64,000 nucleotides of DNA from positions 2,401,476 to 2,465,475 of the forward strand of contig NZ_LR733520.1 of NCBI RefSeq assembly GCF_902506145.1, written 5' to 3'. This DNA comes from Burkholderia sp. 8Y (GTDB lineage Bacteria; Pseudomonadota; Gammaproteobacteria; Burkholderiales; Burkholderiaceae). The notes under the pieces were generated by a model, which was given only the letters and a program-made list of their open reading frames with translations, made no database searches and had not been told where the DNA came from. Position numbers and translations under genes: made by a program. Positions 10,780 to 36,485 of this stretch are shown one piece after another; within the stretch, counting starts at the first letter, position 1; each line of letters starts with the position of its first letter.

Positions 10780-12012
10780 TCAGAAGTTTCCGAGGAACCA
10801 GTCTTTCATTCGTGTGAGCACCTGGCCCATCGATCCGTTCTGCACTGCGACCTTGCGGCCGCGCATGCGCTGCGAACGACCTTCGGCGAGCAGGCCCATG
10901 GCGGTCGAATAGCGCGGGTTGCGCACGACATCCGCCAGACCGCCGGCGTACTCGGGCACGCCGATACGCACTGGCTTCAGGAAGATGTCTTCGCCGAGCT
11001 CGACCATGCCGGGCATCATCGCCGCGCCGCCGGTCAGCACGACGCCGCTCGACAGCAGTTCTTCGTAGCCGGATTCGCGCACGACCTGCTGCACGAGCGA
11101 GAACAGTTCCTCGACGCGCGGCTCGACCACCGCCGCCAGCGCCTGACGCGACAGCGTGCGCGGACCGCGTTCGCCGAGACCCGGCACTTCGATCATCTCG
11201 TCCGGGTCCGCGAGCGCCTGCTTCGCGATGCCGTACGTCACCTTGATGTCTTCCGCGTCCGGCGTGGGCGTGCGCAGCGCCATGGCGACGTCGCTCGTGA
11301 TTTGGTCGCCGGCGATCGGAATCACGGCCGTGTGACGAATCGCGCCTTCGCTGAAGATGGCGATGTCCGTGGTGCCGCCGCCGATATCGACGAGCACGAC
11401 GCCCAGTTCCTTCTCGTCCTCGGTCAGCACCGCGAGCGACGACGCGAGCGGCTGCAGGATCAGGTCGTTCACTTCGAGCCCGCAGCGGCGCACGCACTTC
11501 ACGATGTTCTGCGCCGCGCTCACTGCGCCCGTGACGATGTGCACCTTCACTTCGAGGCGGATGCCGCTCATGCCGATCGGCTCGCGCACGTCTTCCTGAC
11601 CGTCGATGATGAATTCCTGGGTCAGGATGTGCAGCACCTGCTGATCGGTCGGAATGTTGATCGCCTTGGCCGTCTCGATCACGCGCGCGACGTCTGTCTG
11701 CGTGACTTCCTTGTCCTTGATCGCGACCATGCCGCTCGAATTGAAGCTGCGGATATGGCTGCCCGCGATGCCGGTGAAGACGTTCGTGATCTTGCAGTCC
11801 GCCATCAGCTCCGCTTCCTCAAGCGCGCGCTGAATGGATTGGACCGTCGCCTCGATGTTGACCACGACGCCTTTTTTCAACCCCTTCGAGTCGCTCTGAC
11901 CGAGTCCGATCACCTCGTAGTGGCCTTCGCCCTTCAATTCGGCGACGATCGCGACCACCTTCGACGTTCCGATGTCAAGGGAAACCAGCAGGTCTTTATA
12001 GTCTTTGCTCAT
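10780..12012 (-). CDS. ftsA: Cell division protein FtsA
   Basis: FtsA is the actin-like ATPase that tethers FtsZ to the membrane. It is 410 residues from ATG 12012 (MSKDYKDLLVSLDIGTSKV). LDIGTSKV is the phosphate-1 loop, VVLVDIGGGTTDI is phosphate-2 and VVLTGGAAMMPGM the adenosine loop. The C-terminus ends in an amphipathic helix-like GQVLTRMKDWFLGNF, the membrane-targeting sequence. It lies 26 bases after ftsQ, as expected for ftsQAZ. A 144-base gap follows before ftsZ, room for an extra ftsZ promoter. Confidence 0.97.
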   Translation of the reverse strand: MSKDYKDLLVSLDIGTSKVVAIVAELKGEGHYEVIGLGQSDSKGLKKGVVVNIEATVQSIQRALEEAELMADCKITNVFTGIAGSHIRSFNSSGMVAIKDKEVTQTDVARVIETAKAINIPTDQQVLHILTQEFIIDGQEDVREPIGMSGIRLEVKVHIVTGAVSAAQNIVKCVRRCGLEVNDLILQPLASSLAVLTEDEKELGVVLVDIGGGTTDIAIFSEGAIRHTAVIPIAGDQITSDVAMALRTPTPDAEDIKVTYGIAKQALADPDEMIEVPGLGERGPRTLSRQALAAVVEPRVEELFSLVQQVVRESGYEELLSSGVVLTGGAAMMPGMVELGEDIFLKPVRIGVPEYAGGLADVVRNPRYSTAMGLLAEGRSQRMRGRKVAVQNGSMGQVLTRMKDWFLGNF

Positions 12013-12038
12013 AGCGTGCTCATGCCTGTGATGTCTGC

Positions 12039-12791
12039 CTACTTCTTGGCCTTGTCGGTGTCGTTGATGAAGCGCATGCCGGCGGCGCGTATCGCGAAGC
12101 CGTTGGGGTACCGCAAATCCGCATATTCGATCTCCTTGCCCCACCGCCCCGTCACCGATGCCCACGATGCGACGAAACGCTTGCAGCGGTCATACAGCGT
12201 GTCCTGGTTGCGCTCGCGGCCCAGTTCGATCTGCGTGCCGTTCGAAAGCTTCACGGTCCACGCGAAACGCGGCGACAGCGTGACTTCCTCCGGCTGCGCG
12301 TCGAGCGGCGCGAACCACTTCTGGAAGTCGCGATACCGCGCCACCACTTCCTTCGCCGTGCCTTCCGGACCGTCGAACGCGGGCAGGTCGTCGTCGAGTT
12401 CGCCCTGATTCGCGGTGAACAATTCGCCGTCCACGCTGACCAGCTGGTCGTTGCCCCACGTGCCGAGCGGCCTGTACTCTTCGAGCGTCACGGCGATCGC
12501 GTTCGGCCACACGCGACGCACGCTCGCGCGGCGCACCCACGGCATCTGTTCGAACGCGGTGCGCGCGGTGTCGAGATCGACGGTGAAGAAGTTGCCCTTC
12601 AGGTGCCCCACGACGCTCGCCCGCACCGTCGGCGAATTGATGTGCGAGGTGTCGCCGTCGATCTGAATCTCGCGCAGCCGGAACTCGGGACGCTGGATCG
12701 CGTAGACGCCCGCCGCGCACAGCAGCATCAGCACGAGCATGGCGTGCAGCGCGCTTGCGGCGAGATTCATCTGGCGAACGTTGTTCCACAT
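12039..12791 (-). CDS. ftsQ: Cell division protein FtsQ
   Basis: FtsQ is a bitopic inner-membrane divisome protein that bridges to FtsL-FtsB. A short cytoplasmic N-terminus is followed by one membrane helix (about residues 11-31, rich in Ala/Leu), then the POTRA domain (FRLREIQIDGD onwards) and the FtsQ beta domain, which includes the conserved RRVWPNAIAVTLEEYRPLGTW. The length of 250 is normal. It lies 12 bases after ddlB. The C-terminus ends in a Lys-rich tail. Confidence 0.95.
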   Translation of the reverse strand: MWNNVRQMNLAASALHAMLVLMLLCAAGVYAIQRPEFRLREIQIDGDTSHINSPTVRASVVGHLKGNFFTVDLDTARTAFEQMPWVRRASVRRVWPNAIAVTLEEYRPLGTWGNDQLVSVDGELFTANQGELDDDLPAFDGPEGTAKEVVARYRDFQKWFAPLDAQPEEVTLSPRFAWTVKLSNGTQIELGRERNQDTLYDRCKRFVASWASVTGRWGKEIEYADLRYPNGFAIRAAGMRFINDTDKAKK

Positions 12792-12803
12792 GGTTGCGCT
12801 TCG

Positions 12804-13757
12804 TCAGTTCTTGAGAGTGAGAGACAGCACCTTCACGACCAGATCCTGGTAGCTGATGCCCACCGCGCGCGCCGCTTTCGGCGGCAGCGAGTGATCGGTC
12901 ATGCCCGGCGCCGTGTTCACTTCGAGGAAGTACGGGTTCCCGTCGGCGTCCAGCATGAAATCGGCGCGGCCCCAGTCCGTGCAGCCGAGCATGTCGAACG
13001 CGCGCTGCGTCAGTTGCTTCATGCGCGCTTCTTCGGCGTCCGTCAGGCCGCACGGAATCAGATACTTCGTGTCGTCGGCGACGTACTTCGCGTGATAGTC
13101 GTAGAACTCGCCCGCCGGAACGATCTTGATGACCGGCAGATCGAGATCGCCCGCGATGCAGCACGTGTACTCGCCGCCGCCTTCGATGCTCTGCTCGACG
13201 ATCACGATCTTGTCGAACTTCGCGGCTTCTTCCAGCGCCGGCGCGAGTCGTTCCGCGCTCTTCACCTTGATGACCGCGACGCTCGACCCTTCGCTCGCCG
13301 GCTTCACGAAAAGCGGCAGCCCGAGCTTCGCGATGATTTCCTGTGCGCGCGATGCGTAGCCGTCGCCGCGATAGACCGTTTCGAACGGCGGCGTCGGGAT
13401 GCCGGTCTGCTGCCACACGAGCTTCGTGCGCAGCTTGTCCATGCCGAGCGCCGACCCGAGCACGCCGCTGCCCGTATAGCGGATGCCGTAGAAATCCAGC
13501 GCGCCTTGCAACTGGCCGTTCTCGCCGTAGCCGCCGTGCAGCGCGATAAACGCGCGCTCGAAGCCTTCCGCTTTCAGATCCGACAGCGGCCGCTCGGCGG
13601 GATCGAACGGATGCGCGTCGATGCCCGCGTCGCGCAGCCCTTCCAGCACGAGGCGGCCCGAATTGAGCGAGACTTCGCGCTCGGCGGAATTCCCGCCGAG
13701 GAGCACCGCCACTTTGCCGAAGACCTTCGGATCGATGTTGTTCACTGTGTTACTCAT
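12804..13757 (-). CDS. ddlB: D-alanine--D-alanine ligase DdlB
   Basis: This ATP-grasp enzyme makes the D-Ala-D-Ala used by MurF. It is 317 residues from ATG 13757 (MSNTVNN). Visible motifs are [14 protein letters not shown] at the N-terminus, [32 protein letters not shown] (ATP grasp) and [19 protein letters not shown] (Mg and D-Ala binding). A longer frame upstream overlaps murC and is not needed. It lies 20 bases after murC. Confidence 0.97.
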
Positions 13758-33608: not shown

Positions 33609-34799
33609 ATGAATCTGATACCGGAAATCGAAGCATCTCACGATGAAATCCAGGCCCTTCGACGAACAATCCATGCTCATCCCGAACTTCGCTATGAAGA
33701 GGTAGGGACCGCGAAGCTGGTGGCGGAAAATCTCGAACGTTGGGGCATTACGGTTCATCGAGGATTGGGCAAGACGGGCATCGTTGGTGTCTTGAAGCGC
33801 GGATCGGGCAGCCGCTCCATCGGACTTCGCGCAGACATGGACGCGCTGCCGATTCAGGAAACGAACAGCTTTGGTCACAAGTCGACCCACCCCGGACGGA
33901 TGCACGCGTGCGGTCACGACGGGCACACGGCCATGCTGCTCGGCGCCGCCAAATACTTGGCGCAGCACGGAAAATTTGACGGGACGGTCGTATTTATCTT
34001 CCAGCCGGCGGAAGAAGGCGGCGCAGGCGCGAAGGCCATGATCGACGACGGGCTTTTCACGCGCTTCCCGGTGGACGCCGTTTTCGGCATACACAACTGG
34101 CCAGGCTTTCCCGCCGGGCACTTCGGCGTGACGGAAGGGCCGATCATGGCGTCGAGCAACGAGTTTCGCATCACGATTCGCGGCGTTGGATCGCACGCCG
34201 CTTTGCCGCATAACGGGCGCGATCCCGTCTTCAGCGCGGTCCAAGTTGCAAATGCATTGCAGGGCATCATTACGCGCAACAAGAAGCCGCTCGATACGGC
34301 CGTGCTATCCATCACTCAGATTCATGCGGGAGATGCAGTGAACGTGGTTCCCGATCATGCGTGGCTAGGCGGGACGGTGCGTACGTTCACCGTTGAAACA
34401 CTTGATTTGATCGAGACGCGAATGCGCAAGATCGCTGAAGCGACTGCATCGGCTTACGACTGCGAAGCGGAGGTATATTTCCATCGAAACTATCCCCCGA
34501 CGATCAATGATCCGGCGCAGACGAAGTTTGCCGCGGAGGTAATGGCGGAAGTGGTCGGCGAGGAGAACGTCGATTGCTCGGTTGAACCGACGATGGGTGC
34601 CGAGGACTTCTCCTTCATGTTGCTAGAGAAACCTAGCTGCTATGCGTTCCTGGGTAATGGCGATGGCGCGCATCGCGACCATGGACACGGCGAAGGCCCG
34701 TGCATGCTGCACAACGCAAGCTACGACTTCAACGACACGCTGCTATCGGTTGGTTCTTCGTATTGGGTGCGGCTGGCCGAGCGGTTCTTAGCGCGTTGA
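33609..34799 (+). CDS. M20 family amidohydrolase (hippurate hydrolase-like)
   Basis: This 396-residue zinc peptidase/amidohydrolase matches the M20D group (HipO, AbgB, IAA-amino acid hydrolases). Metal-binding motifs are GLRADMDALPI, HACGHDGHTAMLLG and FIFQPAEEGGAGAK; the dimerisation domain starts after GPIMASSNEFRI. The C-terminal MGAEDFSFMLL and CMLHNASYDFND are typical. It probably cleaves an N-acyl amino acid; the exact substrate is unknown. It is a single gene, facing the rRNA locus, with a shared terminator. Confidence 0.9.
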   Translation: MNLIPEIEASHDEIQALRRTIHAHPELRYEEVGTAKLVAENLERWGITVHRGLGKTGIVGVLKRGSGSRSIGLRADMDALPIQETNSFGHKSTHPGRMHACGHDGHTAMLLGAAKYLAQHGKFDGTVVFIFQPAEEGGAGAKAMIDDGLFTRFPVDAVFGIHNWPGFPAGHFGVTEGPIMASSNEFRITIRGVGSHAALPHNGRDPVFSAVQVANALQGIITRNKKPLDTAVLSITQIHAGDAVNVVPDHAWLGGTVRTFTVETLDLIETRMRKIAEATASAYDCEAEVYFHRNYPPTINDPAQTKFAAEVMAEVVGEENVDCSVEPTMGAEDFSFMLLEKPSCYAFLGNGDGAHRDHGHGEGPCMLHNASYDFNDTLLSVGSSYWVRLAERFLAR

Positions 34800-34841
34800 T
34801 TTCCATGGGCGGAGCCGTTTAGCTTCTGGCACCCCCAACGC

Positions 34842-34872
34842 AAAAACCCCACCTTTGAGGGGTGGGGTTTTT
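34842..34872. terminator. Bidirectional terminator between amidohydrolase and 5S rRNA
   Basis: A perfect 12-bp stem (AAAAACCCCACC / GGTGGGGTTTTT) with a 7-base loop, flanked by A and T tracts on both sides. It can end both the plus-strand amidohydrolase and the minus-strand rRNA transcript. Confidence 0.9.
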
Positions 34873-34888
34873 GTTTTCGGCATGAGGA

Positions 34889-35004
34889 GCCTGACGATTA
34901 CCTACTTTCACACGGGCAATCCGCACTATCATCGGCGTGGAGTCGTTTCACGGTCCTGTTCGGGATGGGAAGGGGTGGGACCGACTCGCTATGGTCATCA
35001 GGCA
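34889..35004 (-). rRNA. rrf: 5S rRNA
   Basis: On the minus strand the sequence TGCCTGATGACCATAGCGAG begins a 116-base 5S rRNA, continues through CCCATCCCGAACAGGACCGTG and ends GTAGGTAATCGTCAGGC, whose 3' end pairs with the 5' end. It looks intact. It is normally preceded by 23S rRNA, but here the base just upstream belongs to the 16S 5' region. Confidence 0.93.
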
Positions 35005-35005
35005 T

Positions 35006-35212
35006 GTCCGAAGATCCCCCGCTTTCCTCCGTAGATCGTATGCGGTATTAATCCGGCTTTCGCCGGGCTATCCCCCACTACAGGACACGTTCCGATGTAT
35101 TACTCACCCGTTCGCCACTCGCCACCAGGGTTGCCCCCGTGCTGCCGTTCGACTTGCATGTGTAAGGCATGCCGCCAGCGTTCAATCTGAGCCAGGATCA
35201 AACTCTTCAGTT
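35006..35212 (-). rRNA. rrs: 16S rRNA 5' fragment, truncated
   Basis: On the minus strand the sequence starts AACTGAAGAGTTTGATCCTG, the mature 16S 5' end, and follows 16S through the V1 region (ACATGCAAGTCGAACGGCAG) to GGGGGATCTTCGGAC. After about 207 bases it stops and, one base later, 5S begins. The remaining ~1.3 kb of 16S, the tRNA spacer and 23S are absent. Either a real internal deletion or an assembly collapse. Confidence 0.92.
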
Positions 35213-35410
35213 CAATGCCTGTTACTGTTTTCGGTTCCGTTAGAAACCGGTCGCTCACTCAACGTACTGACGATGATTAATCCATCCTAAGACAGATAAA
35301 CCTTCCTCTGATACTTCGTGTGAGACTCTTGATTACTTTTGCTTTTGCCGCAGCGCCTAAGCACCGCAACCGCACTCGCCATCAAGCGCCCACACTTATC
35401 GGCTGTTAGT

Positions 35411-35422
35411 TTTTAAAGAGCA
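35411..35422 (-). promoter_or_regulatory. rRNA leader boxA antitermination site
   Basis: GCTCTTTAAAAA on the minus strand matches the rrn boxA consensus (TGCTCTTTAACA) and sits about 200 bases upstream of the 16S 5' end, the usual place for Nus-factor loading. The rest of the leader between here and 35213 shows no gene. Confidence 0.8.
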
Positions 35423-35511
35423 ATCCGCCAAGACTTCCTGCTTCGCCGCACCGAGCATCTCGCTCAGCACCGCTTCGTCTTGCGTCGCTGCATCAGCAGC
35501 AGAGAAACGAG

Positions 35512-35540
35512 ATTATGCACGTCGTTTCGGTCAGTGTCAA
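35512..35540 (-). promoter_or_regulatory. rRNA operon promoter
   Basis: Minus strand TTGACA (complement of 35535-35540) and CATAAT (35512-35517) with a 17-base spacer: a perfect -35 and a 5/6 -10. An A-rich stretch (TTCAAAAACTTG) just upstream could act as an UP element. The promoter, boxA and 16S start remain correctly ordered. Confidence 0.82.
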
Positions 35541-35628
35541 CAAGTTTTTGAACCACTTCTTCACTTGCCAACCGCGCTTGCAATATTTCTCACCACTCAC
35601 AAGCTCACTGCCAAACCGCCACTCCCGC

Positions 35629-35708: not shown

Positions 35709-36485
35709 TTATCGATGCTTGAATACCGGCTTGCGCTTCTCGACGAAGGCGGACATTCCCTCCTTTTGATCCTCCGTCGCGAACAGCGAATGGAATAGAC
35801 GCCGCTCGAAGTGGACGCCTTCCGAAAGCGTCGTCTCATAGGCGCGGTTGACCGATTCCTTGGCCATCATGACCGCGGGCAACGAGAAGCCTGCAATGAT
35901 CGTCGCGGCCTCGACAGCTTCGTCCAGCAATCGATCCGCACCCACCACGCGCGACACCAGTCCTGCTCGTTCGGCTTCGGCGGCGTCCATCATGCGGGCT
36001 GTCAGACACAAGTCCATCGCCTTTGCCTTCGATACAGCGCGTGGCAGGCGCTGCGTGCCACCCGCCCCCGGGATCACGCCGAGTTTGATCTCGGGCTGAC
36101 CGAACTTCGCCGAGTCCGCCGCAATGACAATGTCGCACATCATGGCCAGCTCGCAGCCGCCGCCCAGCGCGAAGCCGGCCACCGCCGCGATGATCGGTTT
36201 CCGGATCGACCGGATGGTCTCCCAGTTTCGCGTGATGTAGTCGCCTTTGTAGACATCCATGTACGAATAGCCAGCCATCATGCCGATGTCCGCGCCCGCA
36301 GCAAAAGCCTTCTCGCTGCCGGTCAGCACGATCGCCCCGATGTTGTCGTCCGCGTCGAACGACTTCAGGGCCGCGCCGAGCTCCTCCATTAGCGCATCGT
36401 TCAGCGCGTTCAGCGCCTTCGGACGATGCAACGTGATCAGTCCAACCCGCCCGCGTGTCTCAACCAGCAGATTCTCGTAGCTCAT
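35709..36485 (-). CDS. Enoyl-CoA hydratase, PaaF-like
   Basis: This 258-residue crotonase-fold enzyme hydrates a trans-2-enoyl-CoA. Oxyanion-hole motifs are AFAAGADI near residue 64 and [13 protein letters not shown] near residue 108; catalytic glutamates are expected there and in [19 protein letters not shown]. Its place, divergent from paaN, suggests the PaaF step (2,3-dehydroadipyl-CoA hydration), but a generic beta-oxidation hydratase cannot be excluded. An operator-like palindrome lies in the shared intergenic region. Confidence 0.88.

Follow-up and report, generated by a model that had tools for sequence, protein, structure and literature searches.

A truncated rRNA operon in the Burkholderia sp. 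8Y assembly, almost certainly a mis-join at collapsed rrn repeats

Unlinked or split rRNA genes are reportedly the subject of a study by Brewer et al. (2020). In the draft genome of Pseudomonas fluorescens WH6 only one rRNA operon was seen, and its authors suspect that five operons had collapsed into one contig, the expected number of about five coming from relatives (PMC2997014); a database paper also warns of collapsed rRNA operons in draft assemblies (PMC11261877). The locus described here lies in the window, the whole 64,000-nucleotide stretch that was analyzed (C2:2401476-2465475, in an assembly of 6.28 Mb and 37 contigs). Read along the minus strand it consists of a promoter-like site, boxA, a leader, a 5' fragment of 16S, a complete 5S and a strong terminator, while the remainder of the 16S, the spacer and the whole 23S are missing. 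The features of the locus and its flanking genes are as follows.

33609-34799, plus strand: flanking gene, M20 family peptidase/amidohydrolase (Pfam PF01546); synteny anchor
34841-34873, minus strand: intrinsic terminator hairpin 3' of the 5S, -21.5 kcal/mol
34889-35002, minus strand: complete 5S rRNA (Rfam RF00001, 76.1 bits, model positions 1-120)
35003-35006, no strand: join of a 5S-side contig end with a 16S-side contig end, read as artefactual; its breakpoints recur elsewhere
35006-35213, minus strand: the 5' 208 nt of 16S rRNA, 100% identical to the full 16S copy; the last base is common to both sides of the join
35214-35560, minus strand: rrn operon promoter and leader region, from identity to the assembly's full operon
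35413-35422, minus strand: boxA TGCTCTTTAA in the rrn leader (motif match)
35512-35540, minus strand: rrn promoter-like site, TTGACA-17 nt-CATAAT (pattern match; the corresponding site of the intact operon is identical)
35709-36485, minus strand: flanking gene, enoyl-CoA hydratase family (Pfam PF00378); synteny anchor

In BLAST comparisons with the assembly's single full operon, window positions 35211-35552 are 100% identical over 342 nt, beyond which the two loci diverge; the 16S end represents 208 of the 1532 nt of the full 16S, also at 100% identity, and the 5S, compared over 114 nt with the 5S copies of that operon, is 100% identical as well. The promoter-like site and boxA were labeled by their match to a consensus and a motif. 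The terminator hairpin has a z of -4.79, and 0 of 200 shuffles were equally stable. The 16S fragment gives an Rfam match of 47.2 bits, under the gathering score of 50; no 16S or 23S in the window reaches its gathering score, the 5S being the sole Rfam match at that level, and an ARAGORN scan of the window yields no tRNA gene. In the assembly's full operon the region from 16S to 23S contains tRNA-Ile and tRNA-Ala. A chance resemblance to an rrn operon was excluded. The strand of the truncated operon, here minus, was not given in the sequence-only reading of this DNA. That reading had described an intact promoter, boxA and true 16S 5' end, an intact 5S followed by a strong terminator, and the loss of most of the 16S and all of the 23S, and in all of this it agrees with the pattern matches, the Rfam and BLAST results and the hairpin. 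The jump from 16S to 5S that it described is also present, but the one base said to lie between the two parts is not: the 5S side follows the intact operon up to and including 35006, the 16S side does so from 35006 onward, a single G being common to both sides, with 0 foreign bases between them.

Two origins had been proposed for this structure: collapse or mis-join of a repeated operon during assembly, and a real deletion in one rrn copy. A true deletion would have removed the 3' part of the 16S, the spacer, the 23S and the 23S-5S spacer, and it fits a promoter-like site, boxA, 5S and terminator that are all intact and in order, as well as a join that has no N and one shared base; were it real, the resulting leader-16S fragment-5S transcription unit would supply extra 5S RNA. 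We nevertheless consider such a deletion very improbable in light of the evidence from the other rrn loci and from relatives given below. It is just as improbable that one rrn copy, after such a loss, is now a dedicated 5S transcription unit with an rrn promoter and an antitermination leader; the assembled letters are all that speaks for it.

The assembly in total holds six 5S matches, one full 16S and one 23S, as well as two 16S fragments, both below the gathering score, and its rRNA remnants can be assigned to five rrn loci.

C2:1.703 Mb: 5S and one N, with part of the leader
2.436 Mb, in the window: leader, 16S fragment, 5S
C2:2.506-2.512 Mb: the sole full operon (single full 16S-23S at C2:2507068-2512049), plus another 5S on the far side of one N
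C2:2.6175 Mb and C2:2.6374 Mb: 5S and one N at the former, 16S fragment and leader at the latter
C5:0.587 Mb and C5:0.6546 Mb: part of the leader at the former, 5S beside one N at the latter

Full 16S and 23S genes (one of each) are thus fewer than rrn loci (five), and only one of the other four loci is complete, both of which argue against a true deletion. The seven stretches of this genome that were inspected contain four single N's, one per other rrn locus and all within or beside rRNA parts (C2:1703370, C2:2506775, C2:2617770 and C5:654581). At the full operon, the N at C2:2506775 lies between two 5S copies (C2:2506578-2506691 and C2:2506786-2506899), and the stretch before it repeats the stretch after it; relatives have one 5S per 16S (20 and 20 in the four relatives with both counted). 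A true tandem 5S duplication was rejected on these three grounds, and the pair probably stems from overlapping ends that were left unmerged at a scaffold gap.

Comparison of the broken loci with each other shows that both breakpoints of the window recur, one of them beside an N. The 16S breakpoint agrees to the base with that at C2:2637397, where the 16S fragment meets a cut transposase-like reading frame (one that resembles the C-terminal part of an IS3-type transposase). The 5S breakpoint differs by no more than one base from the N at C5:654581; across that N the 5S faces a frame whose HTH_Tnp_1 match is weak (E 0.0004, 21 bits, under the Pfam cut-off of 24.1). A third common breakpoint is found at C2:2506775 and C2:2617770, where the 40 bases preceding the N are identical. 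The ends that meet in the window thus fall on contig ends or gaps at other places of the assembly, and because they are seen at two other rrn loci, there is no reason for a true deletion to have used them. Against an artefact stands the fact that there is no N in the window, at the join or elsewhere, so that the spot is unmarked as a gap; yet the junctions at C2:2637397 and C5:586778 have no N either.

At two of the rrn loci the halves are separated by other sequence, over distances computed from the coordinates.

C2:2617771-2637396: intervening segment, 19.6 kb
C5:586779-654580: intervening segment, 67.8 kb

At one junction of each pair a transposase-like frame is cut. Such separation of 5S and leader ends, together with the cut frames, is what might be seen if recombination between rrn copies or insertion-sequence activity had truly rearranged several loci, the junction in the window being one product. 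However, a single N stands at one junction of each separated pair, in three relatives the outer flanks of each split locus are found around a single complete operon, and a real rearrangement would leave the genome with one complete and four broken operons, whereas scaffolding at repeat ends accounts for everything at once. We regard real rearrangement as extremely improbable; the 19.6 kb and 67.8 kb segments are probably contigs misplaced by scaffolding.

Synteny was searched in 58 same-genus genomes, the window's own included, and those with nine or fewer contigs (n = 9) were fetched. In all nine the order is M20 gene, 5S, 23S, spacer, 16S, leader and enoyl-CoA hydratase gene, and the matches to 5S, 16S and 23S are full-length; the fetched stretches contain no N, and truncation at the syntenic place is seen in 0 of 9. 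Every near-complete relative therefore has a complete operon where the window has the truncated one, which speaks against a deletion, and the two flanking genes lie about 5.8 kb apart in the nearest relatives versus about 0.9 kb in the window. These nine genomes have four to six full-length 16S genes each (45 in total). By this indirect test the junction finds no backing independent of the assembly: its breakpoints are those of other broken loci, and none of the nine relatives is truncated. At the flanking gene the closest of the relatives reach only 86% identity, and all genomes in the comparison are of other species, so that on synteny alone a strain-specific deletion keeps a small chance. 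The outer flanks of each of the other four rrn loci both surround one complete operon in two relatives (G039 and G049); in a third (G048) this holds for three of the four, the fourth copy being outside the fetched set, and at the C2:1.703 Mb locus the flank on the 5S side has just a short match in G048, only 233 nt at 84%.

Two further drafts that were fetched have contigs that stop 117 and 195 nt beyond the M20 match. Among the best 30 loci of a longer list for the M20 flank, one of which is the window's own, the contig stops 53-627 nt beyond the M20 match in 22 of the 29 loci of relatives, as is expected of an assembly-breaking repeat; the remaining seven run on into 5S and 23S and all come from the nine near-complete genomes. 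The nearest named match of the enoyl-CoA hydratase protein is that of Caballeronia arvi (92%), in a search from which records of the same or very near genomes were possibly omitted; this is a hint that the genus is probably Caballeronia or a close neighbor. Fifteen of 80 named loci with such matches were looked at, and in ten of them (L028-L033, L035, L037, L040 and L041) the contig ends 93-460 nt past the enoyl-CoA hydratase gene; one further contig ends within 16S (L038) and one within 23S (L034). Two loci, one from a Burkholderiales MAG (L039) and one from Achromobacter agilis (L042), continue for about 10 kb past the gene with no rRNA match, so an operon beside the enoyl-CoA hydratase gene is not common to all Burkholderiales. 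The locus of Burkholderia seminalis DSM 23518 (L036) continues to a 5S and has a run of N (11515-13252) over most of the syntenic 16S; this run is a gap or masking, and the locus was not counted as evidence.

The presence of a complete operon at the same place in relatives, and the breakage of the assembly's other rrn loci at the same points, lead us to read the truncated operon as almost certainly a collapse or mis-join at rrn repeats, with the real chromosome most likely bearing an ordinary complete operon here. The assembly half of the earlier pair of proposals is thus upheld by the synteny in nine of nine relatives, the common breakpoints and the N's at sibling loci, and the deletion half is set aside. 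The real locus would comprise promoter, leader, 16S, spacer, 23S, 5S and terminator and would be about 5 kb longer than shown. Near-identical operons would have collapsed into one consensus, the other loci keeping only the stretches that adjoin their unique flanks; contig ends at the repeat would then have been placed next to each other, in some places with an N and in others without, and in the window a 5S-side and a 16S-side end would have been set side by side with none. The common breakpoints, N marks and synteny are observed directly, and from them we infer both that this strain has a full operon here and how the assembly came about. For the interpretation of other genomes, the case is a caution that joins lacking an N at collapsed rRNA repeats mimic clean deletions; comparison of breakpoints among the loci of one assembly, combined with synteny, can decide such cases with high confidence even where reads are lacking.

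Compared with described systems, the assembly resembles that of WH6 in that one full rRNA operon was recovered where about five are expected (PMC2997014). Unlike collapse of the WH6 type, remnants of the other copies persist here at their own loci, and two contig ends are joined with no N, imitating a clean deletion. There is also a likeness to unlinked or split rRNA genes (PMC7761764), since a 5S separated from full-length 16S and 23S genes would look like an unlinked arrangement. The present locus differs from them in that every locus fetched from the near-complete relatives has a linked operon, and the window's own assembly also contains a full linked operon.
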